A stretch of 64,000 bases of DNA, taken from Streptacidiphilus neutrinimicus (GTDB lineage: Bacteria; Actinomycetota; Actinomycetes; Streptomycetales; Streptomycetaceae). The stretch spans positions 1 through 64,000 of the forward strand of contig NZ_BBPO01000035.1 of NCBI RefSeq assembly GCF_000787815.1, in the 5' to 3' direction. Positions 9,166 to 54,076 of the stretch are shown here, piece after piece; within the stretch, counting starts at the first letter, position 1, and each line of letters starts with the position of its first letter. The translations under genes and the position numbers were made by a program. The notes under the pieces are model-generated. The model saw only the letters and a program-made list of their open reading frames with translations, was not told the DNA's origin and ran no database searches.

Positions 9166-10098
9166 TCAGGAGACGCGGCCGAAGAAGTCCGGGTAGTAGC
9201 CGCTGGAAAGGACGGAGATCCGCACGTCCGCGCCTCGGTGCGGGGCCTCGATGTAGCGGCCGCCGCCCAGGTAGATCGCCACGTGGTGGATGCCGCTGGA
9301 GCGGCTGCTGGAGGACCAGAAGATGAGGTCGCCGCGGCGCAGCCGGCCGGGCGCGACGGGGGTGGTCGCCCGGTACTGGTCGGCGGCGACGCGCGGAAGC
9401 TTGATCCCGGCGCGGAAGAAGGCCTGCTGGACCAGGCCCGAGCAGTCGTAGCCGTAGGGGCCGTCGCCGCCCCAGACGTACGGCTTGCCGAGCTGCGCCT
9501 CGGCGAAGCCGATCGCCGCCTCGATGCCTGCCGTGACCGGTCCCGGCGTGGGTCCCGGCGTCGGCACCGGGCTCGGGTTCGGGGACGGGGACGGGTCGGG
9601 GTTCGGATCGCCCGGGCCGGGCCCCGGAACCGGGTGCCCGTGGCCCGCGTACTTCAGGTAGATCGCATAGTGCGTCGTCCAGCGCCACTCGCCGTTCTTG
9701 CGGAACCAGTACCGCTCGCCGTCCCAGCCCTGGCGTATGCCGCCGGTCGCGCTCGCTCCGCCGCTGTCGCCCCCGCTCCCGACGTGGCGCAGGTAGACGG
9801 CGTAGTGGGTGGTCCACCGCCACTCGCCCTCGGCGCGGAACCAGTAACGGTGTCCGTCCCAGCCCGCGTGCGCGAGCGCCGGTTCGGCGCTCGCTGCGGG
9901 CGCGGCTATCAGGGCCGCGCTTCCCCCGACCGCGAGCATCGCGGTGGTCGCGGCGGCGCGGAACAGCGGGCGGCCGGGGGCGCGCCGCTCACGGGCGGCG
10001 CCGCCCGGTGACGCGGCCTCAGTCGTACGGCGGCGGTCGCCGCAGTAGGCACAGGCGCAGACGGCTGTGTCCAGGTCGAGCTCGGCGAAGGCGGTCAT
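9166..10098 (-). CDS. Secreted NlpC/P60 endopeptidase with two tryptophan-rich repeats
   Basis: Probably cleaves peptide bonds in peptidoglycan stem peptides outside the membrane. The 310-residue protein has, in order: an unusual N-terminal Cys-rich tail (CACAYCG, residues 14-20), a hydrophobic signal/anchor helix (about 47-72), two copies of a 27-residue module containing W-D-G-x-R-Y-W-F-R and G-E-W-R-W-T-T-H-Y (79-105 and 124-150), a Pro/Gly/Asn/Asp linker (156-189) and an NlpC/P60 domain. The domain has catalytic C219 (DCSGL), H272 (HVAIYLG) and third polar residue H287. The duplicated module is likely a wall-binding or regulatory unit; I know no named family for it. A GGAG lies about 10 bases upstream of the ATG. 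Confidence 0.88.
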   Translation of the reverse strand: MTAFAELDLDTAVCACAYCGDRRRTTEAASPGGAARERRAPGRPLFRAAATTAMLAVGGSAALIAAPAASAEPALAHAGWDGHRYWFRAEGEWRWTTHYAVYLRHVGSGGDSGGASATGGIRQGWDGERYWFRKNGEWRWTTHYAIYLKYAGHGHPVPGPGPGDPNPDPSPSPNPSPVPTPGPTPGPVTAGIEAAIGFAEAQLGKPYVWGGDGPYGYDCSGLVQQAFFRAGIKLPRVAADQYRATTPVAPGRLRRGDLIFWSSSSRSSGIHHVAIYLGGGRYIEAPHRGADVRISVLSSGYYPDFFGRVS

Positions 10099-10167
10099 GG
10101 CGCACGGACTCCGTTTCTCGTTCCTCGGCGGCGGTTCGCGGTGGTTCGGAGGATGCGGCGGCAGGCG

Positions 10168-11646
10168 TCACGGAAGGTCTGCGACGGGCTCCGGACGCGG
10201 CGCGGGGGGCGCGGACCCCGCGGATGCCGCGGACGGCGCGGACGGCGCGGAAGGCGCGGACGGCGTCGCCGGGGAGCCGCCGGGCGCGGCCGGGGACGGT
10301 TCCGCGACGCGCGAGCGGCCGTCCGGCAGCAGGCGGCTACGGGAGGAGAGGGCGGTCGCCGAGCGGAGCAGGACGGGGTGCCGACCCGCCTCGTCCGCGC
10401 GTCCGGCGCCCGGGACCGCGGTCGCGGAGCCGGGAGCCGGACGGTCGGCGACCACGTGAGCGGGCGCGGGCCCGGAGCCGGGAGCCGGACGGTCGGCGAC
10501 CACGGGAGCGGGCGCGGGGGCCGGACGGTCGGCGACCACGGGAGCGGGCGCGGGCGCAGAGCCGGGAGCGGGGGTGCGGGCCGGATCGGAGACCGGGGAA
10601 GAACCGGCGCCCGCGTCGACCCTGCCGGTCCCGTCCCCTGCCGTTCCGGCGGTCTCCGCCGCCCGGGCGCCCGCCCCGTGGCCCGGCACCGGCACGGACA
10701 GGAAGGCCGTCACGAGGTCCCGCGTCAGCGCGGCGCGGAAGGTGTCGTCGAGCGCGATCCCCTGGGAGCACTCGAGTCGGCGCAGCGTCAGCGTCGCGGT
10801 CTCGACGGCGTCGCCGACGACGACCTCGCGGGTGCCCGCGTCCAGTTCGGCGAGCCTGCGGCGGCGCATGCTGTCGGCGAAGTCGGCGCGGTAGCCGAGG
10901 CCGACGGCCTGGACGGAGTAGACGGCGACGCCGACCGGGGCCATCTCCGCACCGAGCAGGCGGGTCAGCTCGCCGCCCAGCCACTGCCCGTCGCGCAGGG
11001 AGGGGCCGGGGCTGGCGAAGCTGTCGCAGGGCAGCGTCGAGGCCGTCCGGGCGAAGACCGACTCCGCACTCAGGGCCAGATGACGGCCATGGTCGTCGAC
11101 GGAGAAGCGGGCCCGGGCGGTGTCCCTGACCTGCCAGACGATGATCAGCTCGGCGGTGATCGGGGAGCCCTCGCGGTCGGTCGCGAAGATCGGCTCGCTG
11201 CGCCAGTGGCGGATCCGCACGTCGATCGGACGGCGCTTCAGCAGCGGGTTCACCCAGAGCAGCCCGGTGCGGCGCACCGTGCCGCGGTAGCCACCCCACC
11301 GGCTCAGCACCCGGGCCGTGCCCAGCGGGTTCGCCATCAGGCCGGAGACGGCGACCACCACGACCGCGCCGCAGAGCGCCAGCAGCGCCACGGCCGGGTG
11401 CTCCGGGACGACCGGGCCGGTGCCGTGCAGGGTCCGGCCGCCGGGGACCCAGGGCGGCAGCCCGGCGACACGCCGGGCCTGCACCAGCAGGGCGAGGACG
11501 ACGGCGGCGAGGGCCACGAGCAGAGCCGCCCAGCCGGGCAGCGCGGCGCGGGCCGGACGTTCCCTCAGATCCGCGTCGGAGCGGGGCGGTCGGCGCACCG
11601 CCCAAGGAGCGGTGTCCTGTCGCTCGGTCTGGTCCACGAGGTCCAT
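10168..11646 (-). CDS. SPFH (band 7/stomatin-like) domain membrane protein
   Basis: Probably organises a membrane microdomain or protein complex. From the ATG at 11646 (AGAGGGG directly upstream) the protein has 492 residues: a short cytoplasmic start, two transmembrane helices (WAALLVALAAVVLALLV and VALLALCGAVVVVAVSGLM), then an SPFH core (GTVRRTGLLWVNPLLKRRPIDVR, ITAELIIVWQVRDTARARFSVDD, with an RLAELDAGTREVVVGDAVETA coiled segment). The last 150 or so residues are low-complexity Pro/Ala with tandem APAPVVADRPAP units. An upstream GTG/ATG-extended frame reaches 11727 but crosses the likely promoter. Divergent from nadE. Confidence 0.85.
   Translation of the reverse strand: MDLVDQTERQDTAPWAVRRPPRSDADLRERPARAALPGWAALLVALAAVVLALLVQARRVAGLPPWVPGGRTLHGTGPVVPEHPAVALLALCGAVVVVAVSGLMANPLGTARVLSRWGGYRGTVRRTGLLWVNPLLKRRPIDVRIRHWRSEPIFATDREGSPITAELIIVWQVRDTARARFSVDDHGRHLALSAESVFARTASTLPCDSFASPGPSLRDGQWLGGELTRLLGAEMAPVGVAVYSVQAVGLGYRADFADSMRRRRLAELDAGTREVVVGDAVETATLTLRRLECSQGIALDDTFRAALTRDLVTAFLSVPVPGHGAGARAAETAGTAGDGTGRVDAGAGSSPVSDPARTPAPGSAPAPAPVVADRPAPAPAPVVADRPAPGSGPAPAHVVADRPAPGSATAVPGAGRADEAGRHPVLLRSATALSSRSRLLPDGRSRVAEPSPAAPGGSPATPSAPSAPSAPSAASAGSAPPAPRPEPVADLP
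10427..10558. repeat. Tandem coding repeats within the SPFH protein tail
   Basis: The DNA unit GCCGGACGGTCGGCGACCAC recurs three times (near 10436, 10485 and 10520), separated by GGGAGCGGGCGCGGG-like spacers. It encodes PVVADRPAPA repeats. Copies are nearly identical, suggesting recent slippage expansion. Confidence 0.8.
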
Positions 11647-11699
11647 CCCCTCTTGCGGGCTCTTTCGGGAGTTCGTACGTACTCGCACCCTCGCCCAGG

Positions 11700-11810
11700 A
11701 GCTCGAAAGTACCTTTATTTCGGACATACCGTCAATACATCTATATTCAGGTCATATCAGAGCATCTATCTCATCAGCCAACGGGTCACCGCACATCTCG
11801 TCGGAGAGAC
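11700..11810. promoter_or_regulatory. AT-rich divergent promoter region between the SPFH gene and nadE
   Basis: This stretch is markedly AT-richer than its surroundings and contains two CATCTAT copies (near 11739 and 11764) and several ATAT steps. On the minus strand a TTGACG (11735-11730) could be a -35 for the SPFH gene. A GGAGAG (11803-11808) serves nadE. The repeated CATCTAT may mark a regulator site; no family can be assigned. Confidence 0.4.
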
Positions 11811-11825
11811 GATTACTCTGTGGGT

Positions 11826-13583
11826 ATGCCAAGCCTGCGCCTCGCGTTGAACCAGATCGACAGCGTCGTCGGCGACATCGACGGCAACGCCGAGCTGATC
11901 GTCAGCTGGACCCGTCACGCCGTGGAGCAAGGCGCCCATCTGGTCGCTTTCCCCGAGCTCGCGCTCAACGGCTATCCCATCGAGGACCTGGCGCTGCGCC
12001 CGTCCTTCATCGAGGCGTCGCGCTCGGCGCTGGTCGCCCTGGCGACGCGGCTTAAGGCGGAGGGCCTGGGCGCGGTCCCGGTCGTCGTCGGCTATCTCGG
12101 CAAGTCCCTCCAGGACACCCCGCGGCTCGGCCTGCCCGCCGGCTCCCCGCAGAACTGCGCCGCCGTGCTCCACCAGGGTGAGGTCGTCACCCGGATGGCC
12201 AAGCACCACCTGCCCAACTACGGCACCTTCGACGAGTTCCGCTACTTCGTCCCCGGCGACACCCTCCCCGTCGTCCGCCTGCACGGCGTCGACGTCGCGC
12301 TGGCCATCTGCGAGGACATCTGGCAGGACGGCGGCCGGGTCCAGGCCGCGCGCCAGGCCGACGCCGGGCTGCTGCTGGTGATCAACGCCTCCCCCTACGA
12401 GGCGCGACGCGGCGAGGAGCGCCTGGCCCTGGTCCGCAGGCGCGCCGCCGAGGCCGGCTGCACGCTCGCCTACGTCAACCTGATCGGCGGCCAGGACGAG
12501 CTCGTCTTCGACGGCCAGTCCGTCGTCGTCGAGACCGACGGCACGGTGCTGGCGCGCGCCCCGCAGTTCGAGGAGGGGTGCCTGCTGATCGACCTCGACC
12601 TGCCCGCCGCCACCGCGGCGGTGGACGGCGCGACGCGGATCGTCGCCGACGGCCTGGAGATCAGGCGCTCCGTGCTGTCCGAGGAGCCGCTTCCCGCTCC
12701 CGAGGCGCCGGTCGTGCCCGGCGAGGCCGCGCCCCTGGCCGAGCTGGAGGAGGTCTACGCCGCACTGATCTGCGGCGTCCGCGCCTACGTGCGCAAGAAC
12801 GGCTTCAAGTCGGTGCTGATCGGCCTCTCCGGCGGCATCGACTCCGCGCTCGTCGCCGCGATCGCCGTGGACGCGATCGGCGCCGAGAACGTCTACGGCG
12901 TCTCCATGCCGAGCGCGTACTCCTCCGAGCACTCCCGGGACGACGCCGCGGAGCTGGCCCGCCGGACGGGCCTGAACTTCCGCACGGTCTCCATCGCGCC
13001 GATGTTCGACGCCTACATGGCTTCGCTGGGCCTCACCGGCCTCGCGGAGGAGAACCTCCAGTCGCGCCTGCGCGGCACGCTGCTGATGGCCCTCTCCAAC
13101 CAGGAGGGCCACATCGTCCTCGCCCCCGGCAACAAGAGCGAGCTGGCGGTCGGCTACTCCACCCTCTACGGCGACTCGGTCGGCGCGTTCGGCCCGATCA
13201 AGGACGTCTACAAGACGCTGATCTTCCGGCTCGCCCGGTGGCGCAACGAGATCGCCCGTGAGCGCGGCGAGACGCCGCCGATCCCGGAGAACACCATCTC
13301 CAAGCCCCCGTCCGCGGAGCTGCGCCCCGGCCAGGTCGACACGGACTCCCTGCCGGACTACGACACCCTGGACGCGATCCTGACGGCGTACGTGGAACGG
13401 GATCTGGGCCGCGCGCAGATCGTCGCCGAGGGCTACGACCCGCCGCTGGTCGAGCGGGTGATCCGGCTCGTGGACACGGCGGAGTACAAGCGCCGGCAGT
13501 ACCCGCCGGGCACGAAGATCAGCGTCAGGAACTTCGGCAGGGACCGCCGCCAGCCCATCACCAACCGCTGGCGCGAGCACTAG
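11826..13583 (+). CDS. nadE: Glutamine-dependent NAD+ synthetase
   Basis: Makes NAD+ from nicotinic acid adenine dinucleotide using ATP and the ammonia of glutamine, the last step of NAD biosynthesis. The 585-residue protein has an N-terminal nitrilase/amidase domain with the E44-K126-C162 triad (FPELAL, KHHLPNYG, AICEDIW) and a C-terminal synthetase domain with the PP-loop LSGGIDSALVAAI (S335 onward) and a KSELAVGYSTLYGD block. A GTG at 11820 is an alternative start; the ATG at 11826 matches homologues, which begin MPxLRLALNQID. A single gene, convergent with the EEP gene after 33 bases. Confidence 0.96.
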   Translation: MPSLRLALNQIDSVVGDIDGNAELIVSWTRHAVEQGAHLVAFPELALNGYPIEDLALRPSFIEASRSALVALATRLKAEGLGAVPVVVGYLGKSLQDTPRLGLPAGSPQNCAAVLHQGEVVTRMAKHHLPNYGTFDEFRYFVPGDTLPVVRLHGVDVALAICEDIWQDGGRVQAARQADAGLLLVINASPYEARRGEERLALVRRRAAEAGCTLAYVNLIGGQDELVFDGQSVVVETDGTVLARAPQFEEGCLLIDLDLPAATAAVDGATRIVADGLEIRRSVLSEEPLPAPEAPVVPGEAAPLAELEEVYAALICGVRAYVRKNGFKSVLIGLSGGIDSALVAAIAVDAIGAENVYGVSMPSAYSSEHSRDDAAELARRTGLNFRTVSIAPMFDAYMASLGLTGLAEENLQSRLRGTLLMALSNQEGHIVLAPGNKSELAVGYSTLYGDSVGAFGPIKDVYKTLIFRLARWRNEIARERGETPPIPENTISKPPSAELRPGQVDTDSLPDYDTLDAILTAYVERDLGRAQIVAEGYDPPLVERVIRLVDTAEYKRRQYPPGTKISVRNFGRDRRQPITNRWREH

Positions 13584-42427: not shown

Positions 42428-43351
42428 TCACCTCGCCTGGCGGCGGGCCTCCTTGAACGCGCGGGAGACCTCCCAGGCATCGGCGACCGGGCCCACGTGG
42501 CCCAGCTTGTCGGGGTTGAGCACGAGGCGGACGGCCTGGATCTCCCCGTCCAGGACGTCGAGTTCCAGGGTGTGCAGCACCTTGCCGTCGCGGTCGCGGA
42601 CGATCGCGCCCGGCTGGCCGTTGATCGCGTGGGGCTCGATCGTGAGCCCGAGGCGGACCAGGGCGGGGAAGACGGCGGCGAGCAGCCGGGCCACCTTGTC
42701 CGCGCCCGCGATCGCCCTCGCCAGCTGCGGGGCCTTGCCGCCGCCGTCGCCGACCATGGAGACGTCGGCGGCGAGCAGGTGCCGCAGGCCGTCGACGTCG
42801 CCCTCGCGCAGTGCGTCGAAGAACCGTGCGGCGAGCTCCTCGCGCTCCTTGCGGTCGGCCTCGAACCGGGGCCGACCGGCGTTCATGTGGCGCCTGGCCC
42901 GCACCACGAGCTGGCGGCAGGCCTCCTCGGAGCGTCCGACGGCCGAGGCGATCTCCGCGAAGCCGAAGTCGAAGACCTCGCGCAGCACGAAGACCGCGCG
43001 CTCCAGCGGGCTCAGCCGCTCCAGCAGCAACAGCGCCGCCGTGGACACGGAGTCGGCCAACTCGGCCGAGCGGGCCGGGTCCTGGTAGGGGTCGGCGAGC
43101 AGCGGCTCGGGGAACCACGGCCCGAGGTACTCCTCCCGCTGGACCCGGGCCGAGCGCAGCACGTCGATCGAGATCCGGGTGACCACGGCGGAGAGGAAGG
43201 ACTTGGTCGACCTCGGCTCGGTGTCGGTGGCCTCGAAGCGCAGCCAGGTCTCCTGGACCGCGTCCTCGGCCTCGCTGACGCTGCCCAGGACCCGGTACGC
43301 GATGGAGAACAGCAGCGGGCGCAGCTCCGCGAAGTCCTCGACCTTGCTCAT
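42428..43351 (-). CDS. sigJ: ECF41-type RNA polymerase sigma factor with SnoaL-like C-terminal domain (SigJ-like)
   Basis: 307 residues. The sigma-2 region has YRVLGSVSEAEDAVQETWLRF; sigma-4 has LSPLERAVFVLREVFDFGFAEIASAVGRSEEACRQLVVRARRHM. A SnoaL/NTF2-like C-terminal extension carries the ECF41 family motifs DGGGK and LNPDKL, which tune activity in place of an anti-sigma factor. The gene lies 46 bases after a carboxymuconolactone decarboxylase gene, the partner typical of ECF41, and a consensus-like ECF41 promoter precedes that gene. The inducing signal is unknown. Confidence 0.95.
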   Translation of the reverse strand: MSKVEDFAELRPLLFSIAYRVLGSVSEAEDAVQETWLRFEATDTEPRSTKSFLSAVVTRISIDVLRSARVQREEYLGPWFPEPLLADPYQDPARSAELADSVSTAALLLLERLSPLERAVFVLREVFDFGFAEIASAVGRSEEACRQLVVRARRHMNAGRPRFEADRKEREELAARFFDALREGDVDGLRHLLAADVSMVGDGGGKAPQLARAIAGADKVARLLAAVFPALVRLGLTIEPHAINGQPGAIVRDRDGKVLHTLELDVLDGEIQAVRLVLNPDKLGHVGPVADAWEVSRAFKEARRQAR

Positions 43352-44026: not shown

Positions 44027-45283
44027 TCAGTCCCCGCCGTGGGCGAGGTAGGCGCGCTGGGTGGCGATGTGGTCGGCGATGTGGCGGGCGTCGTGCCAGA
44101 CGCCCCAGATGAAACTGGAGCCGCGGCGGGACTGCCAGGGGAGGCCGAGGAAGTAGACGCCCGGCTCGGCGGAGACGCCGCGGCGCTGGTGCGGACGGCC
44201 GCTCGGGTCGAAGGCGTCGACCTCGAGCCAGCCGAAGTCGGTGGCGTAGCCCGTCGCCCAGACGATCGAGGTGACGCCGGCCTCGGCCAGGTCGAGTTCC
44301 CGGCGCGGGTGCGCCACGCAGTCCGGTTCGGGGCCGAGGACGTGCGCCTGCGGCTCCTGCGGCAGGTCGAGGCCGTTGCGCTCGACGTACGCGTCGGCCG
44401 CGCGCAGGAGCGCGAGGTACTTGGCGTCGCCGGCTGCGATGTTGGCGGCGAGGTCGGGCGCGAAGCGCAGAACGCCGTCGGCGCAGGAGGCGGTCAGGCC
44501 GAGCAGTTCGATGCCGTCGGCGGCCAGTTCGCGGAAGTCCACGGTGTGACCCCCGCGGGCGCCGCTGACAGCGATGGTGACGTGTTCCGCGCCCTGCGGC
44601 GGCGTCTCCGCGTCCCACAGCCCGAGCACGCCGAGCCACCAGCAGAAGTCACGCCCGCGGTACTGGCGCGGCGGCCGGTCGTGCGGGCCCACGGAGAGGA
44701 ACACCCGGCGGCCGGACCGGCGCAGCTCGTCGGCGATCTGCACGCCCGAGGAGCCCGCGCCGACCACGAGCACCGCGCCCTCCGGCAGTTGGCCGGGGTT
44801 GCGGTAGGCGTGGGAGTGGATCTGCACGGGCACCGCGCCGTCCGGCACGATCGGCGGGATCAGCGGCCGCTGGAACGGGCCGGTCGCCGCCACGACGAAG
44901 CGCGCGTCGATCGGGCCCTGCGACGTCTCGACCCGGAAGCCGGGCCGGCCCGTGTGCCTGCGCACGGAGGTCACCTCGACGCCGCACCGGACCGGTGCGC
45001 CGATCTTCTGCGCGTACGCGACGAAGTAGTCCGCGACCTGCTCCTTGGAGGCGAAGGCGTCGGGGGCGACGCCCTCGAACTCCAGCCCGGGGAACCGGTC
45101 GTGCCACGCGGGCCCGTTGGCGACCAGGGAGTCCCACCGCGCCGTGCGCCACCGCTCGGCGATCCGGTCCCGCTCCAGGACGAGGTGCGGGATGCCATGG
45201 GCGCCCAGATGCTCGCTCATCGCCACGCCCGCCTGGCCCGCCCCGACGACGACCACGTCGACTTCGGTCACTTCACTCGGCAT
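44027..45283 (-). CDS. Flavin-containing monooxygenase (FAD/NADPH-dependent, CzcO-like)
   Basis: 418 residues from the ATG at 45283 with GGAGG upstream (an in-frame GTG at 45295 is less well placed). Motifs: FAD site VVVVGAGQAGVAMSEHL, NADPH site VLVVGAGSSGVQIADEL and the terminal VWATGYATDFGWLE ATG motif. Probably oxygenates a nitrogen, sulfur or ketone centre of a small molecule. It lies downstream of the LysR gene; the gap contains an ATCTGATT element also found in the LysR box, so it may be a LysR target. Confidence 0.9.
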   Translation of the reverse strand: MPSEVTEVDVVVVGAGQAGVAMSEHLGAHGIPHLVLERDRIAERWRTARWDSLVANGPAWHDRFPGLEFEGVAPDAFASKEQVADYFVAYAQKIGAPVRCGVEVTSVRRHTGRPGFRVETSQGPIDARFVVAATGPFQRPLIPPIVPDGAVPVQIHSHAYRNPGQLPEGAVLVVGAGSSGVQIADELRRSGRRVFLSVGPHDRPPRQYRGRDFCWWLGVLGLWDAETPPQGAEHVTIAVSGARGGHTVDFRELAADGIELLGLTASCADGVLRFAPDLAANIAAGDAKYLALLRAADAYVERNGLDLPQEPQAHVLGPEPDCVAHPRRELDLAEAGVTSIVWATGYATDFGWLEVDAFDPSGRPHQRRGVSAEPGVYFLGLPWQSRRGSSFIWGVWHDARHIADHIATQRAYLAHGGD

Positions 45284-45385: not shown

Positions 45386-46306
45386 TCATCGACGGGCGGG
45401 CGCGGCCAGCAGCTCGTGGGCGAGCTGCGCGACGGCCGCCGCCCGCCCGGTCTGGCGTACGCCGTCCATCCGGGCGAGGACCAGATCCAGCGGTGGGTGC
45501 TCGTTCGTGAGCGCGAGGACGGCCACCTTGGCGCCGCTGTAGGTGTCGTCGGTCGCGGGGCGCTGGTGCAGCACCGAGAAGCCGTGGCCGAGTGCCACGA
45601 GCGAGCGGACCGCCTCGTAGTTGTGCGAGCGGTGGCGGACCACGGGCGTGATGCCGGTCGCGGTGACGAGCGACCAGAAGTAGTCACGGCTGTGCGGCAG
45701 GTCGAGCAGGACGAACGGTTCGTCGGCCAGCTCGGCCAGGTCGACGGCGCCGCGACCGGCCAGCGGGTGGTCGGCCGCGACGAGCGCGTGGACCGGCAGG
45801 GAGGCGACGGTGTCGCGCGCGACGCCGGGCCCGAGGCCGAGGTCGTAGGTGAGGGCGAAGTCGATCCGGCCGGTGCGCAGCGCCCGGTCGAGCTCGTCCG
45901 CCTCGCCCTCGACGACGTCGATCCGGAGCCCGGGGTGGCGGTCCGCCGCCGCGACCAGCAGCCCCGGCAGGACGAAGGGGGCCAGGGTGACGAAGCAACC
46001 GAGCCGGACCGGCCCGCTCAGCCCGCCCTCGACGCCGCGCGCCTCGGCGGCCACGTCGAGCGCGTGCGTGAGGAGCTCGCGCGCCTGCAGCAGCAGCCGG
46101 TCCCCGGCGGGGGTGGTGACCAGGCCCTTGCCCTTGCGGCGGATGAACAGCTGGACGCCGAGCTCGTGCTCCAGGTTCGAGACCGCGGTGGACACCGCCG
46201 ACTGTGCGATCAGCAGCCGCTCGGCGGCCGCCGTCATGCTGCCGGCCTCGGCGGCCACGACGAAGTACCGCAGCTGCGCCAGCGTGAATCCGACCGCTTC
46301 CGTCAT
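45386..46306 (-). CDS. LysR-family transcriptional regulator
   Basis: 306 residues. The N-terminal winged helix reads FTLAQLRYFVVAAEAGSMTAAAERLLIAQSAVSTAVSNLEHELGVQLFIRRKGKGL. The C-terminal part is a periplasmic-binding-like co-inducer domain. It is divergent from the ridA operon, with a perfect LysR-type box in between, and most likely activates it in response to a substrate. Confidence 0.94.
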   Translation of the reverse strand: MTEAVGFTLAQLRYFVVAAEAGSMTAAAERLLIAQSAVSTAVSNLEHELGVQLFIRRKGKGLVTTPAGDRLLLQARELLTHALDVAAEARGVEGGLSGPVRLGCFVTLAPFVLPGLLVAAADRHPGLRIDVVEGEADELDRALRTGRIDFALTYDLGLGPGVARDTVASLPVHALVAADHPLAGRGAVDLAELADEPFVLLDLPHSRDYFWSLVTATGITPVVRHRSHNYEAVRSLVALGHGFSVLHQRPATDDTYSGAKVAVLALTNEHPPLDLVLARMDGVRQTGRAAAVAQLAHELLAAPARR

Positions 46307-46332: not shown

Positions 46333-46373
46333 CATCTGATTCTCAGATGACCCAACACTAAAAGATCTGCTTT
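46333..46373. promoter_or_regulatory. LysR-type binding sites between lysR and ridA
   Basis: CATCTGA and TCAGATG form a perfect 7-3-7 palindrome at 46333-46349 that contains the T-N11-A signature of LysR recognition sites. A weaker inverted repeat, AAAG-ATCTG-CTTT (46361-46373), lies 11 bases further towards ridA and fits an activation site. Confidence 0.8.
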
Positions 46374-46467
46374 ACCGGCGATAGAGCCGCTCGCATAGTG
46401 GTGCTGCGGCCCCACCGGCCCAACCACGACGCCCACAAGCCCCACAAGCCCCGGGAGAGGTTTGCTG

Positions 46468-46941
46468 ATGGTGCATCACCGACTGCGGCGCTTCAACACC
46501 GCCGACACCTATCCCGAGCAGAACCTCGCCAACGACCTGGCCCAGGCCGTCGTCGCCGAGGGCACCGTCTACCTGCGCGGGCAGATCGGACAGGACCTGA
46601 CAACCCGCGAGAGCGTCGGCGTCGGCGACGTCGAGGCCCAGGCGGAACGGGCGATGGCCAACATCGCCATGCTGCTGGAGGAGTCCGGGAGTTCACTGGA
46701 CGAGATCGTGAAGGTGACGATCTACCTCACCGACGTGCGCTACCGCGAGACCGTCTACCGCGTCATGGGCCGCCGGCTCAAGGGCGTGCACTACGTCTCG
46801 ACGGGCCTGGTCGTCTCCGCGCTGGCCCGGCCGGAGTGGCTGGTGGAGATCGACGCCACCGCCGTCATCCCCGCCTCGCGCCGGGCCGAGGCGGCCGGGA
46901 TCCGGCATGCAAAGGCGGCCGAGCGAGGGGAACTGCTGTGA
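46468..46941 (+). CDS. RidA/YjgF/YER057c-family protein
   Basis: RidA proteins hydrolyse reactive enamine/imine intermediates of amino acid and amine breakdown; subfamilies act in specific catabolic pathways. 157 residues from an ATG with GAGAGG 7 bases upstream. The fold is recognisable from AEGTVYLRGQIGQDL, ERAMANIAMLLEESGSSLDEIVKVTIYLTDVRYRETVYRVM and EWLVEIDATAVIP. The archetypal catalytic Arg of RidA (in the R-P-x-R segment) is replaced around ALARPEWLVEI, so it belongs to a divergent Rid group. First gene of a three-gene coupled operon. Confidence 0.88.
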   Translation: MVHHRLRRFNTADTYPEQNLANDLAQAVVAEGTVYLRGQIGQDLTTRESVGVGDVEAQAERAMANIAMLLEESGSSLDEIVKVTIYLTDVRYRETVYRVMGRRLKGVHYVSTGLVVSALARPEWLVEIDATAVIPASRRAEAAGIRHAKAAERGELL

Positions 46942-47615
46942 CCTTCTCCCTTACGGCGCGGTGCACCCGGACCGGGCAGGTCGGGGCGGCCATCGCCTCC
47001 TCCAGCCCCGCCGTGGCCGCACGCTGCGCGTACGTGCGCGCCGGCGTCGGCGCGGCGTGCACGCAGAACGTGACCGATCCGCGGCTCGGGCCGTGGCTGC
47101 TGGACCTGCTGGCGGCCGGCGCGGGCGCGGCGGACGCGGTCGCGCACACCGTGGCCACCGAACCCCTGGTCGCCTGGCGGCAGTTGACGGCAGTCGGGGT
47201 GAGCGGCGCGCCCGCCGCGTACTCGGGCGAGCACGCGCTCGGCGCGCACGCGCAGGTCGTCGGCGCGGACTGCGTCGCGGCCGGGAACCTGCTCGCGCAC
47301 CCGGACGTGCCGCAGGCGATGGTCGACGCGTTCACGGCGCGCCCCGAACGGCCGCTCGCGCATCGGCTGTTGGACGGGCTGGCGGCGGCCCTCGCGGCAG
47401 GCGGCGAGGCGGGGCCGGTCCACTCGGCCGGACTCCTGCTCGCGGACGCGGCGCCCTGGCCGGTCACGGACCTCCGGGTGGACTGGACGGAGGGCGATCC
47501 GGTCGCGGAACTGGCTGCCCTGTGGCAGCTGTGGGAGCCGCAGCAGGACTCCTACCTCCAGCGAGCGCTCGCACCCGACCTGGCCCCCAGCTACGGCGTC
47601 CCGGGGGACCTGTGA
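46938..47615 (+). CDS. DUF1028 protein (putative Ntn-hydrolase fold)
   Basis: 225 residues from a GTG that overlaps the ridA stop codon (GTGA). The sequence begins VTFSLTARCTRTGQVGAAIASSSPAVAARCAYVRAGVGAACTQNVTDPRLG, as is standard for DUF1028, a family suspected to be amidohydrolases of the Ntn-hydrolase fold. The ending WEPQQDSYLQRALAPDLAPSYGVPGD is also typical. Commonly operonic with RidA and M20 peptidases, suggesting hydrolysis of an amide or opine-like compound. Confidence 0.85.
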   Translation: MTFSLTARCTRTGQVGAAIASSSPAVAARCAYVRAGVGAACTQNVTDPRLGPWLLDLLAAGAGAADAVAHTVATEPLVAWRQLTAVGVSGAPAAYSGEHALGAHAQVVGADCVAAGNLLAHPDVPQAMVDAFTARPERPLAHRLLDGLAAALAAGGEAGPVHSAGLLLADAAPWPVTDLRVDWTEGDPVAELAALWQLWEPQQDSYLQRALAPDLAPSYGVPGDL

Positions 47616-48919
47616 GCACCCCGGCCGCCGGCGGCGAGTCGGACGGCCGCGCTCCAGGCGCGGAATCGAGGGCGGAATCGAGGGCGGCAGCCACGCGCTT
47701 CGCTTCGGCGCCCGGAGGAACGGTCGGCCCACGGAGCGAGAGCACCGCTCTCGCGCAGGCGCCCGGGGTCGCGCGGACGGCGCTCCGCGACACGATCGGT
47801 GCTCTCGCGGGCCCGCTGACCGGGCTCTCGCGGCGCCTGCACGCCCATCCCGAGACCGCCTGGGAGGAAGAGAAGGCCGCGCGCTGGACCGCCTCGCTCC
47901 TCGACGACCTCGGCTACGCCGTGACCCCCGGCGTCTGCGACCTGCCCACCGCGTTCTCCGCCCGGATCGGCAGCGGCCCACTGCACGTCGCGCTCTGCGC
48001 CGAGTACGACGCGCTGCCCGGCCTCGGCCACGCCTGCGGCCACAATCTCATCGCCGCCTCCGCCGTCGGTGCGGCCGCCGGGCTGGCCCGGGTCGCCGAC
48101 GACCTCGGGCTCACCGTGACCGTCCTCGGCACCCCGGCCGAGGAGGGCGGCGGCGGGAAGATCCTGATGCTGGAGCGCGGCGCCTTCGACGGCGTCGACG
48201 TGGCGATGATGGTCCACCCCGGTCCCGTCGACGTCGCCGAGGCCGAGCCCTTCGCCGTCGCCCATCTGGGCGTCCGCTACACCGGACGGGCCGCGCACGC
48301 CGCCGCCTACCCCGAGCGCGGACGCAACGCCGCGGACGCGTTCACCGTCGCCCAGGTCGGCATCGGCCTGCTGCGGCAGCAGCTCCCGGCCGGCACCCGG
48401 GTGCACGGCCTGGTGACCCGCGGCGGCGAGGCGCCGAACGCCATCCCGGAACGGACGGAGGGGCGCTGGTACGTGCGCGCCGCCGACCTGGAGGAGCTGG
48501 AGCGGGTCCAATCCCGGGTCGAGGCCTGCTTCCGGGCCGGGGCGCTGGCCGCCGGCTGCGCCTTGGAGATCGAGCCGGAGAGCCCGCCGTACTCGGAGTT
48601 CCGGGGTGACCCGGAGCTGCTGGCCCGCTACCGCCGCAACGCCGAGGGCATCGGCCGCCGCTTCGCCGCGCCCGGCGATCCGGCCGCCCGGATGAACCGG
48701 GCGTCGACGGACATGGGCAACGTCTCGCGCGTCGTGCGCGCGCTGCACCCCTACATCGGCGTCGACTCGCTGCCGGCCGTCAACCACCAGCGCGAGTTCG
48801 CCGCCGCCTGCGCGACCCCGGCCGCCGACGCTGCCCTGCTGGACGGCGCGCTGGCCCTCGCGCTGACGGCGGCCGACCTGGCCGCGTCCGACGGCGCTAC
48901 AGCTCGGCGCACCCCGTGA
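47612..48919 (+). CDS. M20-family metallo-amidohydrolase
   Basis: 435 residues from a GTG overlapping the DUF1028 stop codon (GTGA). Preceded by a disordered 60-residue leader, the M20 core shows AEYDALPGLGHACGHN (metal His), TPAEEGGGGK (catalytic/metal Glu), MMVHPGP and the dimerisation domain with GRAAHAAAYPERGRNAADA. The type resembles p-aminobenzoyl-glutamate or N-acyl amino acid hydrolases. With RidA and DUF1028 it likely degrades an N-substituted amino acid. Its 3' end overlaps the convergent tetR gene by 23 bases. Confidence 0.9.
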   Translation: MSTPAAGGESDGRAPGAESRAESRAAATRFASAPGGTVGPRSESTALAQAPGVARTALRDTIGALAGPLTGLSRRLHAHPETAWEEEKAARWTASLLDDLGYAVTPGVCDLPTAFSARIGSGPLHVALCAEYDALPGLGHACGHNLIAASAVGAAAGLARVADDLGLTVTVLGTPAEEGGGGKILMLERGAFDGVDVAMMVHPGPVDVAEAEPFAVAHLGVRYTGRAAHAAAYPERGRNAADAFTVAQVGIGLLRQQLPAGTRVHGLVTRGGEAPNAIPERTEGRWYVRAADLEELERVQSRVEACFRAGALAAGCALEIEPESPPYSEFRGDPELLARYRRNAEGIGRRFAAPGDPAARMNRASTDMGNVSRVVRALHPYIGVDSLPAVNHQREFAAACATPAADAALLDGALALALTAADLAASDGATARRTP

Positions 48920-49502
48920 CAGCCCGCGCGTGCGCGGTCAGCAGGCCGAGCGCGGTGACCCGGTCCACGACCGGGTTGCGCGCGACGATGTGCAGGCCGT
49001 AGCCGTCCTCCAGGGCGACGAGGTTCCGCGCGGCGTCGGCGACGGGTGTGGCGAGCGTGAACACGCCTGCCACGGCGCCGACTTCGAGCAGCGTCGCGTA
49101 GAGCGCGACCTCGCGGGCGAAGAGCGAGCCCATCAGCGCGGCGTGCCCGGCACTGCGGTCGGCGAGGCCGTGCAGCTCGAAGAGCAACCGGTGCACCGGG
49201 TCACCCGGGCCCTCCGGCAGGCCGGAGGCTAGCGCGGCGCGCAGCCGGGCGGCCGGGCCCCCGCCGGGGTCCTCGGCCTTGGCCTGTCGCTGCGTCAGAT
49301 AGCGCTCGACGGCGTCCTGATGGACGGCCAGCACGAGGTCGTCCAGCTCCGGGTAGTAGTACAGGACCGACCCCGCCGAGACGCCGGCCTCGGCGGCGAT
49401 GTCCTTGATGCGCAGGCCGGCCATGCCCCGGTCCGCGATCGCCCGTCCGGCGGCGTCGATCAGCGCGTCGCGGCGGGCCCCTTGGTTCTTCGGTCGTGCC
49501 AT
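48897..49502 (-). CDS. TetR-family transcriptional regulator
   Basis: 201 residues from the ATG at 49502 (MARPKNQGARR); an ATG 9 bases earlier is an alternative. The helix-turn-helix is LRIKDIAAEAGVSAGSVLYYYPELDDLVLAVHQDAV, and the type resembles PuuR/BetI-like amine-responsive TetR proteins. Divergent from the aldehyde dehydrogenase operon, whose promoter carries a matching inverted repeat, so it most probably represses that operon. Confidence 0.9.
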   Translation of the reverse strand: MARPKNQGARRDALIDAAGRAIADRGMAGLRIKDIAAEAGVSAGSVLYYYPELDDLVLAVHQDAVERYLTQRQAKAEDPGGGPAARLRAALASGLPEGPGDPVHRLLFELHGLADRSAGHAALMGSLFAREVALYATLLEVGAVAGVFTLATPVADAARNLVALEDGYGLHIVARNPVVDRVTALGLLTAHARAVTGCAEL

Positions 49503-49629: not shown

Positions 49630-51141
49630 ATGAGTGACTCCACCCCCACCCCCACCCACGCCGACTGGCAGCGCCGGGCCGCCGCTCTCACCGCACAGAC
49701 CCGCGCCTTCGTCGGCGGCGACCAGCGCGACGCCCGCTCCGGCGCGACCTTCACCGACACCGACCCGGCCACCGGCAAGGCGCTCGCCGAGATCGCCGCC
49801 TGCGACGCGGCGGACGTGGACGTCGCCGTCCGCTCGGCCCGCGCCGCCTTCGCCGACGGCCGCTGGTCCGGCCTCGCGCCGGAGGCGCGCAAGAAGCGCC
49901 TGCTGCGCCTGGCCGAGCTGATCGAGCGGCACGGACCCGAGCTCGCCCTGTACGACTCGCTCGACGTGGGCAAGCCCGTCGCCGAGGCGCTGGCCGTCGA
50001 CGTGCCCGGCGCGGCCGGTTGCTTCGCCTGGCACGCCGAGGCCGCCGACAAGCTCTACGACGAGGTCGCCCCGGCCGCACCCGGCAACCTGGCGCTGGTC
50101 CGCCGCGTCCCGCTCGGCATCGTCGGCGCGGTCGTGCCGTGGAACTTCCCGCTCGACCTGGCTTCCTGGAAGCTCGCCCCCGCCCTCGCGGCCGGCAACA
50201 GCGTCGTCCTGAAGCCCGCCGAGCAGTCGCCGCAGTCGGCACTGCTGCTCGCCCGACTGGCGGTCGAGGCGGGCATCCCGGACGGCGTGCTGAACGTCGT
50301 CCCGGGCCTCGGCGAGACCGCCGGGCGCGCACTCGGCCTGCACCCGGACGTCGACGTGCTGGCGTTCACCGGCTCCACCACGGTCGGGCGGCTCTTCCTC
50401 TCCTACGCCGCGCAGTCGAACGGCAAGCAGGTCTGGCTGGAGGCGGGCGGCAAGAGCCCCAATCTCGTCTTCCCCGACGCCGATCTGGACGCCGCCGCCG
50501 AGCGCGCCGCCTTCGGCTTCTGCTTCAACGCCGGCCAGGTCTGCTCCGCCAACACCCGGCTGCTCGTCCACGCCGACATCGCCGAGGAGTTCACCGCCCG
50601 CGTCGCCGAGCACGCCGCCGCCTACGTGCCCGGCGACCCGCTCGACCCGGCCACCCGCCTCGGCCCGCTGGTCGACGAGGCCCAGGCGCGGCGCCTGCTC
50701 ACCGCCGTCGACGCGGCCCGCGCGCAGGGCGGCCGCGTCGTCCTCGGCGGCACCCGGCCGGACCGCGGTGACCTCGCCCTGGGCGCCTACCTGCACCCGA
50801 CGATCGTCACCGGCCTGCCCGAGGACGCGCCGCTCGCCCGCGAGGAGCTGTTCGGGCCGGTGCTGACGGTCCTTCCGTTCCGGGACGAGGCGGACGCGGT
50901 GCGGATCGCCAACGACTCCCCCTACGGGCTGGCCGCGTCCGTCTGGACCCGCGACCTGGCCCGCGCCCACCGCGTCGCCGAGGCGCTCCACGCCGGGACC
51001 GTCTCGGTCAACACCGTCGACGCGCTGAGCCCGACCACGCCGTTCGGCGGCTTCAAGCAGTCCGGCTACGGACGGGACCTCTCCCTGCACTCCTTCGAGA
51101 AGTACACCGGCCTGAAGACGACCTGGGTCTCCTTCGGCTGA
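49630..51141 (+). CDS. Aldehyde dehydrogenase (PuuC-like)
   Basis: 503 residues from an ATG with AGAGGA 8 bases upstream. Catalytic C305 ([14 protein letters not shown]) and base E271 ([14 protein letters not shown]) are present, as is [12 protein letters not shown]. The overall pattern resembles PuuC, which oxidises gamma-glutamyl-gamma-aminobutyraldehyde or aminoaldehydes in polyamine breakdown. The downstream aminotransferase and permease support an amine substrate. First gene of the operon. Confidence 0.93.
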
Positions 51142-51170: not shown

Positions 51171-52541
51171 ATGAGCCGCACCCCCCTCACCCCCGAACAG
51201 CTGCGCGACGCGGACCGGGCCCGGATCATCCACCCCTACCTGCCCGGCTCCGTCTCCGAGCGCGTCGTGATGACCGAAGGCTCCGGCTGCCGCCTCACCG
51301 ACGCGGACGGCCGCTCCTACCTCGACGCCACCGGCGGCCTCTGGCTGGCCCAGATCGGCCACGGCCGCGAGGAAGTGGCCCGCGCCGCGTTCGAGCAGAT
51401 GCAGCAGCTGGAGTACTTCACCAGCTTCTGGGAGTTCTCCAACGAGCCCGCGATCCGGCTGGCCGGCAAGCTGACCGAGATCGCCCCCGAGGGCCTGGGC
51501 CATGTCTACTTCACCTCCGGCGGCTCGGAGGGCAACGAGGCCGCGATCAAGATGGCCCGCTACTACCACCACCGTCGCGGCGAGAGCTCCCGCACCTGGA
51601 TCCTGGCGCGGAACAAGGCGTACCACGGGATCGGCTACGGCGGCGGCTCAGCGACCGGCTTCCCGGTCTACCACGAGGGCTTCGCCCCGATGATGCCGCA
51701 CGTCTCGCACCTGACTCCGCCGTGGCCGTACCGCAGCGAGCTTTACGCCGGCGGGGCCGGAACACCCGAGGACCCCACCGACTTCCTCATCGCCGAGCTG
51801 GAGCAGCGGATCGCCGAGATCGGCCCGGGCAACATCGCCGCCATGATCGGCGAGCCGATCATGGGCGTGGGCGGCATGCTCGTCCCGCCGGCCGACTACT
51901 GGCCGCGGGTGCGGGAGGTGCTGGACCGCCACGGCATCCTGTTGATCCTCGACGAGGTCGTCACCGCCTACGGCCGCGTCGGAAAGTGGTTCGCCGCCCA
52001 GCACTTCGGCGTCCGGCCGGACATCGTCGTCACCGCCAAGGGCATCACCTCCGGCTACATCCCGCTGGGTGCGCTGCTGGTGGGCGACCACGTCGCCGAG
52101 GAGCTGCTCGCGGACCACGGCTTCCCGATGGGCTACACCTACAACGGCCACCCGGTCGCCGCCGCCGTCGCCCTGGCGAACCTGGAGATCATCGAGCGCG
52201 AGGGCCTGCTCGCCCGCGCCACCGAGATCGGCGGCTACCTGCACCGCGAGTTGGAGGCGCAGCTCGGCGACCTGCCCGTGGTCGGCGAGATCCGCTCGGT
52301 CGGCATGATGCTCGCGGTCGAGCTGGTCGCCGACCGGGCAACCCGCGAGCCGTTGCCGATGCTCCAGCCGCTGCTGCCCGACGTGATCCGCCGGGAGACC
52401 GGCGTCATCGTCCGCGACTGCGCGCACTCCCTGGTCCTGTCTCCGCCGCTGATCATGACGGAGACGGAGGCCAAGGAGACCGTCGCCGCCATGCGCCAGA
52501 TCCTGGAGCGGGTGACCCCCACCGGCGAGATCCACGCCTGA
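51171..52541 (+). CDS. Class III PLP-dependent aminotransferase (omega-amino acid/amine type)
   Basis: 456 residues from an ATG with GAAAGG upstream. The PLP lysine is K290 ([15 protein letters not shown]). PLP-binding landmarks [38 protein letters not shown] and the early [16 protein letters not shown] are all visible. The class moves terminal amino groups of putrescine, GABA, beta-alanine or similar to pyruvate or 2-oxoglutarate. Position between aldehyde dehydrogenase and permease makes it the amine-to-aldehyde step. Confidence 0.94.
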
Positions 52542-52579: not shown

Positions 52580-54076
52580 GTGTCCACCACCCCCACATCG
52601 GACGCCCAGGCGGCCGCCACCGCCGAGGGAACCGACTCCGTCCCCCACCTGCACCGCAGCCTCGGCCGGGCCGACATCATGGCCCTCGGCGTCGCCGCGG
52701 TGATCTCGGCCGACGTGATCGGCCAGATCGCCACCGGCGGCGGCGAGGCCGTCACCTGGACCCTCGTCCTCGCGCTGTTCTTCCTCGTCCCCTACGCCCT
52801 GCTCTTCGCCGAGACCGGCGCCGCGTTCCCGCAGGAGGGCGGCCCCTACGTCTGGGTCAAGCTCGCCTACGGGCGCACGGCGTCGGCGCTGACCACGCTG
52901 CTGTACTGGGTCACCAACCCCGTCTGGCTGGGCGGTTCGCTCGTCTTCGCCGCCGCGCAGGCCTGGGACGGGCACGTGACCAAGCTGGGCAGCGGCACCC
53001 CCGCCGACTACACGTTCAAGCTGGTCTTCATCTGGATCTCCATCCTGTCCGCCGTCATCTCGCTGCGACGCGGCAAGTGGATCACCACCCTCGGCGCCCT
53101 CGCCAAGGTCGCGCTGATGCTCGTGATCACCACGAGCGCGCTGGTCTACGGCCTCCAGCACGGCTTCGCGGGCCTGCACAGCACCACCTTCTCCCCCACC
53201 GCCGGCGGCTTTCTCGCGCTGGTGCCGATCCTGCTCTTCGCCTACGTCGGCTTCGAGGCCCCGAACGCGGCGGGCGAGGAGATGCGCAACGCCAAGCGGG
53301 ACGTGCCGATCTCCATCGGCGTCTCGGGCACGGTCGCGGCCTGCTGCTACCTGCTGCCGGTGCTGGCGATCCTGGCCGTCGTCCCGGCCCAGCAGATCAC
53401 CGGCGTCGCCGGGTTCCTGGACGCGGCGTCCCTGGTCTTCGGCAGTTACGGCAGCGCGGGCGGAGCGCTGCTGACGGCCACGAGCGTGCTGTTCGTGCTG
53501 GTGCTGATGACCCAGGGCAGCGCCTGGATGATCGTCAGCGACCGGATGCAGGCCATGGCCGCGGCCGACGGCGGCTTCTTCAGCCGCGCCCTCGGCGCGT
53601 TCCACCCGCGACTGGGCACGCCGGTGCGGATGAACCTGCTCTCCGGCGTCACCGCGACCTCCTTCATGCTGGCGGCGACGCTGCTGGTGAACGGCAGCAC
53701 GGCGGCGGTCTTCAAGGTCGTGCTCACCGTGGCCGTCACCACGCTGCTGCTGTCCTACCTGGTCGTCATCCCCGCGCTGGGCACGCTGCGCCGCCGCCAC
53801 GCGGAGGTCCCGCGCCCATACCGGGTGCCGGGCGGCGCCTGGGGCTTCCGGATCAGCCTCGGGCTGGTCTACCTGTGGATCGTCCTGGGCTCCTGGGTCG
53901 CGCTCTTCCCCGGCGTGCTGGAGCGCCTGCTGGGCGTGCCGTACGACTTCACCGGCACGTGGGGCGTCTCGCGCTCGGTCTTCGAGGCCTTCACCCTCGG
54001 CACGGTCGCCGTGCTGCTCGCCGTCGGCGTCCTCGGCCGCCTCGTCGCCGCCCGGCTCGACCAGCCCCGGGGGTAG
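52580..54076 (+). CDS. APC-family amino acid/amine permease
   Basis: 498 residues from a GTG with GAGGAG 7 bases upstream. About 12 helices; characteristic segments are IMALGVAAVISADVIGQIATGGGEAVTW, ETGAAFPQEGGPYVWVKLAYGR and PILLFAYVGFEAPNAAGEEMRNAKRDVP. The EGGPYVWVKLA motif occurs in GABA/glutamate or polyamine (PuuP-like) antiporter groups. Likely imports the substrate of the two upstream enzymes. Ends the operon. Confidence 0.92.
   Translation: MSTTPTSDAQAAATAEGTDSVPHLHRSLGRADIMALGVAAVISADVIGQIATGGGEAVTWTLVLALFFLVPYALLFAETGAAFPQEGGPYVWVKLAYGRTASALTTLLYWVTNPVWLGGSLVFAAAQAWDGHVTKLGSGTPADYTFKLVFIWISILSAVISLRRGKWITTLGALAKVALMLVITTSALVYGLQHGFAGLHSTTFSPTAGGFLALVPILLFAYVGFEAPNAAGEEMRNAKRDVPISIGVSGTVAACCYLLPVLAILAVVPAQQITGVAGFLDAASLVFGSYGSAGGALLTATSVLFVLVLMTQGSAWMIVSDRMQAMAAADGGFFSRALGAFHPRLGTPVRMNLLSGVTATSFMLAATLLVNGSTAAVFKVVLTVAVTTLLLSYLVVIPALGTLRRRHAEVPRPYRVPGGAWGFRISLGLVYLWIVLGSWVALFPGVLERLLGVPYDFTGTWGVSRSVFEAFTLGTVAVLLAVGVLGRLVAARLDQPRG

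Follow-up and report, generated by a model that had tools for sequence, protein, structure and literature searches.

A stretch of 64,000 nucleotides from Streptacidiphilus neutrinimicus (contig NZ_BBPO01000035.1, positions 1 to 64,000; hereafter the window) carries at 46468-48919 an operon of three genes, encoding a Rid protein, a DUF1028 protein and an M20 amidohydrolase. We consider the locus around this operon quite likely to be an actinobacterial version of the hin system of histamine catabolism, with its genes in one place, and very probably it turns histamine into aspartate. Homology and synteny with Pseudomonas genes were computed, together with a predicted N-terminal-threonine (Ntn) hydrolase fold and a conserved threonine at residue 2 (Thr2) of DUF1028, the missing arginine of the Rid protein, and the replacement of the M20 enzyme and, in some relatives, of the monooxygenase. 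Histamine as the starting substrate, the chemistry of each step and the assignment of the hydrolyses to individual proteins are what we infer.

The Rid-DUF1028-M20 operon and the hin genes of Pseudomonas

The first gene encodes a RidA-like protein of the HinL type (46468-46941, + strand, ATG start, 157 amino acids) that scores 75.6 bits against PF01042 (cut-off 27.3). It is followed by a DUF1028 gene of the HinH type, a predicted Ntn hydrolase (46938-47615, +, GTG start, 225 amino acids; PF06267, 206.7 bits, cut-off 26.2), and by an M20 amidohydrolase gene in the hinG position (47612-48919, +, GTG start, 435 amino acids), which falls in the TIGR01891/Xaa-Arg dipeptidase branch (TIGR01891, 181.4 bits, cut-off 153.75; PF01546, 37.6 bits, cut-off 24.6). 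Pfam and NCBIfam both place the Rid and M20 proteins; NCBIfam has no DUF1028 model. The genes overlap by four bases, GTGA, at 46938-46941 (Rid/DUF1028) and 47612-47615 (DUF1028/M20), confirming the coordinates and both junctions given in a sequence-only reading of this DNA. From the overlaps that reading expected the products in a fixed ratio, which may hold. It had also tied the operon to a nearby monooxygenase and an amine operon, and rightly so: the operon is real, conserved and catabolic, and it goes together with both.

Excerpts of PMC8231116 tabulate hinF (PA5393), hinL (PA5392), hinH (PA5391) and hinG (PA5390), and a second region of hinK (PA0218), hinD (PA0219), hinA (PA0220) and hinC (PA0221) followed by a solute-binding protein gene (PA0222). 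They describe six steps from histamine to aspartate, with hinFLHG degrading histamine via imidazole-4-acetate and HinH among the proteins required. An excerpt of PMC6467879 describes HinF as a flavin adenine dinucleotide (FAD)-monooxygenase (EC 1.14.13.5) and labels both HinH and HinG as amidases, with EC 3.5.1.8 for HinG; HinL is named there as an enamine deaminase and HinI as an aspartate ammonia-lyase.

One locus of P. aeruginosa PA7 (L148) holds monooxygenase, Rid, DUF1028 and M20 genes in that order. Its flanks, a cardiolipin synthase gene on one side and choline/carnitine-type genes on the other, fit what we take to be the setting of PA5390-PA5394 (PA5394 and the carnitine cluster), and the locus is therefore treated here as PA5393-PA5390, that is hinFLHG. 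The HinF-type protein of the window, an FAD-dependent monooxygenase (44027..45283, - strand; PF13738) and by homology an imidazoleacetate monooxygenase, is 73% identical to the PA7 protein in the hinF position (301/411); the Rid and DUF1028 proteins are 62% (83/133) and 53% (118/224) identical to those in the hinL and hinH positions. Since the window DUF1028 matches hinH in both sequence and gene order, we equate it with HinH.

The second Pseudomonas region also has counterparts in the window. At 314-320 kb PA7 carries LysR, aldehyde dehydrogenase, APC, aminotransferase and solute-binding-type genes in the PA0218-PA0222 order (L229). Divergent from the window operon lies a HinK-like LysR gene (45386..46306, -). 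Within PA7 its product is closest to the LysR encoded next to the hinD-A-C-like genes (40-41% identity), and among solved structures to 6m5f and 3fzv. Downstream of the operon is a HinD-like aldehyde dehydrogenase gene (49630..51141, +); its best PA7 match, at 62.5%, is the HinD-position protein next to the HinK-like LysR. Because these two best matches adjoin in PA7, within the PA0218-PA0222 order, the window unites counterparts of two separate Pseudomonas regions. Two further genes give it homologues of the first four genes in that order, a class III aminotransferase (51171..52541, +; PF00202), the proposed histamine aminotransferase, and an APC-family permease (52580..54076, +; PF13520), the proposed histamine importer. 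At its 3' end the M20 gene overlaps with a TetR/BetI-like regulator gene (48897..49502, -; PF00440, PF13977).

Conservation of the module and replacement of single enzymes

We searched 297 genomes of the family with the window DUF1028 protein. Matches were found in 51, and 20 genomes, its own included, hold a copy of at least 48% identity; genome G003 gave three equal-score DUF1028 matches on contigs C2, C3 and C6. The loci of the 19 relatives were fetched as stretches of up to 19.9 kb, several of them ended by contig ends. Rid, DUF1028 and M20 genes are contiguous in 19/19 Streptomycetaceae loci (DUF1028 is split in L044 and M20 in L045). The same stretches contain the aldehyde dehydrogenase in 13, the aminotransferase in 12, the APC permease in 10 and an aspartase in 8 of the 19. 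Sixteen stretches include an FAD monooxygenase, and one further locus has it some 1 kb beyond the stretch. DUF1028, the permease and, by gene call, the aspartase are each split in L044 (G182:C1:643600-663500), by sequencing error or decay.

The 4-bp overlap between Rid and DUF1028 genes recurs in 18 of the 19 measurable junctions among 20 Streptomycetaceae loci, the window being one of these. Only L043 departs from it, with an apparent change of frame towards the 3' end of its Rid gene; the junction of L044 was not measurable by script. Six of seven other actinobacterial loci have this overlap, against 7 of 35 measured in a survey of Pseudomonadota; the start refinement behind these figures itself sought Thr2 and served gene distances only. 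The DUF1028/M20 junction is not conserved, with a 4-bp overlap in 6 of the 19 relatives and distances from -8 to +77 bp, by gene calls, in the other 13. M20 proteins are 371-399 amino acids long in 18 of 19 relatives (the L045 copy being split) against 435 in the window, which makes the window's M20 start codon uncertain. The N-terminal stretch of the window M20 (47612-47780) contains a repeated GCGGAATCGAGG unit.

In the two remaining relatives, L042 and L043, the Rid gene is directly preceded by genes for a flavin reductase and an HpaB-type monooxygenase, and their genomes contain no FAD-monooxygenase homologue at E <= 1e-20, save a 34% partial match in G230. Likewise, no FAD-monooxygenase homologue was detected at this threshold in two other actinobacterial genomes, G652, with an HpaB gene beside the module, and G345, where the flavin reductase alone was recognised. 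Replacement of the FAD monooxygenase near HinL/DUF1028 by an HpaB-type enzyme, in most cases accompanied by a flavin reductase, is seen in both Actinomycetota and Pseudomonadota (L042:10412-12426, L043:6877-8894, L062, L159, L160, L161, L178, L184, L198, L211, L215, L218 and L223).

A search for HinL across the window's phylum (alignment A3, E <= 1e-40) returned one place each in 6 of 396 genomes, its own included. Among the other five, Rid and DUF1028 are adjacent in four and a window-type M20 is present in three; the fifth, L221, is degenerate. In the distant actinobacterium L223 an aminotransferase (72%), an APC permease (47%) and an aldehyde dehydrogenase (57%) stand beside the module. Amine oxidase genes accompany it in L054 and L222, and these, like the aspartase in 8 of the 19 stretches, fit a route from an amine through aspartate to fumarate. 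L222, from another distant actinobacterium, has an operon (9883-12921) in which the genes for HinL, DUF1028 and an amine oxidase (43% to an Arthrobacter one) overlap.

We also scanned genome contigs with a seven-sequence alignment of the monooxygenase. The best 80 of at least 547 relatives are by name all Pseudomonadota, and the bait itself ensures that each contains the monooxygenase. It is accompanied by Rid and DUF1028 in 79 and by an ArgE-type M20 in 77, with neither a window-type M20 (0/80) nor HpaB (0/80). A survey of 398 genomes of PA7's phylum that started from HinL only (alignment A3, E <= 1e-40) located 41 places, spread over 37 genomes, in stretches mostly of about 14.5 kb, with identity and coverage thresholds set by us. 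DUF1028 is present in 36 of the 41, in 35 of those within 200 bp on the same strand. An FAD monooxygenase is found in 29, HpaB without it in 6 and neither in 6; L196, which belongs to the 29, has in addition the terminal part of an HpaB-like gene, some 5 kb off on the opposite strand and cut by the stretch edge. An ArgE-type M20 occurs in 28 of 41 and a window-type M20 in none. The five stretches lacking DUF1028 are L180, L192, L201, L204 and L208, two of which hold an arginase-family gene instead.

Plasmids carry related arrangements. Three Azospirillum plasmids (L063, L156, L157) have a HinL-type Rid gene followed by an arginase-family gene and ArgE, and two of them, L063 and L156, also a gene annotated as formimidoylglutamate deiminase (HutF), which in L063 passes curated cut-offs. 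An arginase-family gene lies near Rid-ArgE on the Ewingella plasmid L056. In all, a HinL-type Rid gene stands near an arginase-family gene, with no DUF1028 and no monooxygenase nearby, in L063, L156, L157, L056, L180 and L201. Klebsiella plasmids carry DUF1028 homologues (105 Klebsiella records). The K. pneumoniae plasmid pSJ25_1 (L064) has a full hinFLHG-type operon with a GMC oxidoreductase, an aldehyde dehydrogenase and a cytosine permease, and on an Acetobacter plasmid (L060) the module is again accompanied by a GMC oxidoreductase. In Leisingera the module lies about 6 kb from hut genes.

Between the LysR and Rid genes of the window we find the inverted repeat CATCTGA-TTC-TCAGATG (46333..46349), a putative LysR operator of the T-N11-A form, with perfect 7-bp arms in the window and a related, less perfect sequence in aligned relatives. 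It is followed by a conserved 19-base block, CTAAAAGATCTGCTTTACC (46358..46376, +), a putative LysR activation site and -35 region, which is identical in 10 aligned loci, window included, and has one match in the window and none in shuffles. The putative promoter TTTACC-N17-CATAGT (46371..46399, +) has its CATAGT conserved in 10 aligned loci, window included. Imidazole-acetate is probably the signal to which the HinK-like LysR responds by activating the operon. With one mismatch CTAAAAGATCTGCTTTACC also precedes the HpaB pair of L042, which ties the HpaB form to the same regulator. The block was not found (at least 4 mismatches) in L043, L045-L052, L054, L055, L058 and L220; of these, L045-L052 are more distant family loci, and four are loci of other actinobacteria. 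Gaps between the TetR and aldehyde dehydrogenase genes contain no inverted repeats in 9 of 13 cases, window included.

Further genes were seen around or apart from the operon. A carboxymuconolactone decarboxylase-family gene (PF02627; 43398-43874, -) lies beside a SigJ-type sigma factor gene (42428-43351). Membership of the window monooxygenase in an MSMEG_0569-type flavoprotein cluster (TIGR04046) was rejected, its 355.2 bits being below the curated cut-off of 498.35. The genome has a second DUF1028 gene (C178:155329-155901; L003:9830-10567) of 38% identity, upstream of an 815-amino-acid gene that is presumably a Lon protease. This copy was rejected as part of the system; it lies away from Rid and M20 genes and lacks several HinH-specific residues.

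Predicted chemistry and competing explanations

In the proposed pathway the APC permease would import histamine, the aminotransferase would convert it to imidazole-4-acetaldehyde and the aldehyde dehydrogenase would oxidise this to imidazole-4-acetate. Hydroxylation by the FAD monooxygenase would then give imidazolone-acetate, which HinL, DUF1028 and M20 would carry to aspartate in three hydrolytic steps. Ring opening would yield N-formimidoyl-aspartate, deimination N-formyl-aspartate and deformylation aspartate, the names beyond imidazole-acetate being taken from general background. Aspartate would finally be converted to fumarate by an aspartase, whose gene adjoins the cluster in several relatives and lies at another place in the present genome. 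Our preferred order assigns ring opening to HinL, deimination to DUF1028 and deformylation to M20, the first two being about equally likely to be the other way round.

We modelled the structure of the window DUF1028 from 43 sequences and obtained a predicted local distance difference test score (pLDDT) of 91.3. The model has the fold of SPO2555 (PDB 2imh), a DUF1028 protein of Silicibacter pomeroyi deposited as a hypothetical protein (Z 32.1, 216 residues aligned, 29% identity). It also matches circularly permuted taspase-1 (Z 18.0, 192 aligned, root-mean-square deviation 3.0) as well as HslV and proteasome beta (Z about 12), and in many rows Thr2 is the first residue aligned, opposite residue 1 of the proteasome beta or HslV chain. 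An Ntn-hydrolase fold is thus predicted for DUF1028. Projection by script over 167 loci yielded 154 DUF1028 sequences, and in 146 of them the start codon is followed by Thr. Of the other eight, L221 is degenerate (Thr, with no start codon there), and seven had been mis-projected or split and show start-Thr on re-reading, in part with a pattern that itself asked for Thr. A conservation list drawn from Thr2-filtered sequences is not counted as evidence for Thr2. The start-Thr pattern fits a threonine nucleophile exposed by loss of the initiator Met, which would have to be removed.

According to the sequence-only reading DUF1028 has no assigned reaction, and this stands in part. The protein is HinH, required for histamine degradation according to excerpts of PMC8231116 and an 'amidase' in an excerpt of PMC6467879; the exact step is not stated in these excerpts. 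Within the Creative Commons-licensed literature of PubMed Central our searches found no paper on DUF1028, COG3342 or PF06267, which does not prove that nothing is in print. The same literature gave no paper on RidA, an Ntn hydrolase and M20 together, none that combines at least three of histamine, imidazole acetic acid, Streptomyces and hinF, and only unrelated matches for imidazoleacetate monooxygenase.

The Rid protein departs from the well-studied members of its family. In alignments to 2b33 and 3mqw, Thr112 of the window Rid aligns with the Arg at the RidA Arg105 position, and Thr occupies this position in 147/147 HinL proteins of at least 150 bits (within STG in 144, FTG or CTG in 3), which makes the 'enamine-handling RidA' of the sequence-only reading doubtful. 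Excerpts of PMC4433059 and PMC5619798 describe release of ammonia from imines by Rid proteins with the Arg; those of PMC4433059 add that Rid groups without Arg105 appear unable to hydrolyse imines and still lack an assigned function. Judged by this residue, HinL would fall outside the RidA imine deaminases (RidA, Rid1-3). The best PDB match of the window M20 is 7yh4 (E 2.1e-68), its closest solved structures being Xaa-Arg dipeptidases, and by its position it is a candidate formyl-aspartate deformylase.

Tentatively, HinH-type DUF1028 may be a propeptide-less Ntn hydrolase with a new activity, on N-formimidoyl-aspartate or imidazolone-acetate, and the arginine-less HinL may be catalytic in opening the imidazolone ring. 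The same pathway could divide the work otherwise, a possibility we likewise hold with some reserve: DUF1028 as an Ntn amidohydrolase would open the imidazolone lactam ring, and the Rid protein would remove the formimino ammonia. Ntn hydrolases cleave amide bonds, which favours this division, as does the ammonia release by Arg-bearing Rid proteins (excerpts of PMC4433059 and PMC5619798). Against it stands the Thr of HinL at the Arg105 position, the loss of that Arg being linked to lost imine hydrolysis (excerpts of PMC4433059). The loci with an arginase-family gene near Rid, joined by HutF on two Azospirillum plasmids, also argue against it; their lack of DUF1028 suggests that DUF1028 performs the formimino step. 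No monooxygenase lies near these genes, however, and their substrate may be a different one, and we therefore keep both assignments.

The pathway reading is at its weakest at the amine end. The core operon might instead degrade imidazole-4-acetate from a source other than histamine, such as imidazole-ethanol, imidazole-lactate or another product of histidine, while the aldehyde dehydrogenase, aminotransferase and permease serve some other amine, for example a polyamine. Such a source is unlikely, even though the relationship of the aminotransferase to HinC and of the permease to HinA is weak, the best NCBIfam match of the aldehyde dehydrogenase is PuuC, below cut-off, and a GMC oxidoreductase accompanies the module on the Klebsiella and Acetobacter plasmids, the gene set of L064 suggesting entry from an alcohol such as imidazole-ethanol. 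It is opposed by the 62.5% identity of the aldehyde dehydrogenase to the HinD-position neighbour of the HinK-like LysR, by the recurrence of aldehyde dehydrogenase and aminotransferase in most of the 19 Streptomycetaceae stretches, several of them cut by contig ends, and by the presence of aminotransferase, APC and aldehyde dehydrogenase beside the module in distant L223.

The sequence-only reading suggested that an N-substituted amino acid, such as an N-acyl one, or something opine-like is degraded; this is very improbable. M20 enzymes commonly hydrolyse N-acyl amino acids, the closest solved M20 structures are Xaa-Arg dipeptidases, and a flavin enzyme and amine genes lie near; we dropped this route because the hinFLHG synteny is clear, three of the four genes being homologous in the same Rid-DUF1028-M20 order, and aspartase and hut-type genes occur with the module. 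The related hinFLHG degrades histamine via imidazole-4-acetate (excerpts of PMC8231116).

Several observations weigh against histamine catabolism by a hin-type pathway at this locus. HinL lacks the Arg on which Rid imine hydrolysis depends, and no similarity of the window M20 to PA7 HinG was detected (BLASTP, E 0.10). The aminotransferase is 36% identical to the HinC-position protein and has closer matches in PA7, and the permease is 23% identical to the HinA-position protein; neither is a clear orthologue, so the starting amine could be another. The nearest aspartase homologue in the genome, at 72% identity, lies outside the window cluster, on C139. The amine oxidase of L054 is closest, among solved structures, to phenylethylamine oxidases and gives no particular pointer to histamine. 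At six of the 41 HinL places in Pseudomonadota no monooxygenase was recognised over a distance of about 7 kb, and at two of the six DUF1028 is missing and an arginase-family gene is present; the module may therefore serve more than one substrate. Finally, neither the 19-base block nor the inverted repeat of the window was found near the PA7 hin genes, apart from weak 5-mismatch matches, when forms of 13 bases or more were compared with up to 5 mismatches allowed.

Comparison with known hin systems

The original work on histamine is reportedly that of de la Torre 2018 and Wang 2021. Histamine breakdown has been reported from Pseudomonas, and initially none was found in Gram-positive bacteria (excerpts of PMC8231116). 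Brevibacterium has putative hin genes whose products are homologous to HinA, D, F, G, H, I and L, and a histamine oxidase is the proposed first enzyme; by locus tag the HinG homologue lies away from the cluster (excerpts of PMC6467879). We suspect that the Brevibacterium gene beside HinH encodes the same M20 as the window's. The locus described here would extend histamine breakdown to Streptomycetaceae, beyond Pseudomonas and the putative Brevibacterium case.

If the reading is true, it places DUF1028 and an Arg-less Rid protein in a pathway with named intermediates, where both can be assayed directly, and it would give DUF1028 and a Rid group of no known function their first reaction. Single steps are taken over by unrelated enzymes: HpaB and flavin reductase stand in for the FAD monooxygenase, the ArgE-type HinG gives way to a PM20D2-type M20, and some loci have an amine oxidase with the module at the expected aminotransferase slot. 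On the tentative view of DUF1028 and HinL given above, the monooxygenase, deacylase, amine-oxidising and hydrolase slots would each have been filled by unrelated enzymes. Anyone searching by homology from the Pseudomonas genes alone would therefore overlook some parts of the pathway or assign them wrongly.

Compared with the hinK-hinD-hinA-hinC region (PA0218-PA0221), the window has a LysR of 41% and an aldehyde dehydrogenase of 62.5% identity and the same aminotransferase and permease families; it differs in an additional TetR regulator and in the order aldehyde dehydrogenase-aminotransferase-APC instead of aldehyde dehydrogenase-APC-aminotransferase. With hinFLHG (hin2; PA5393-PA5390, and P. 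putida U) it shares homologues of the FAD monooxygenase, Rid and DUF1028 proteins and an M20 gene in last place. That M20 belongs to another subfamily, however: the window protein passes TIGR01891, whereas the ArgE-type PA7 HinG passes TIGR01892 and NF005710. In the window, moreover, the monooxygenase gene lies on the opposite strand beyond the LysR gene, and hinK-, hinD-, hinC- and hinA-type genes stand at the same locus and not in a separate region. On the evidence of homology and gene order the locus is one that works like the hin system and, because HinG is replaced, we class it as a variant of hinFLHG and not as hinFLHG itself.

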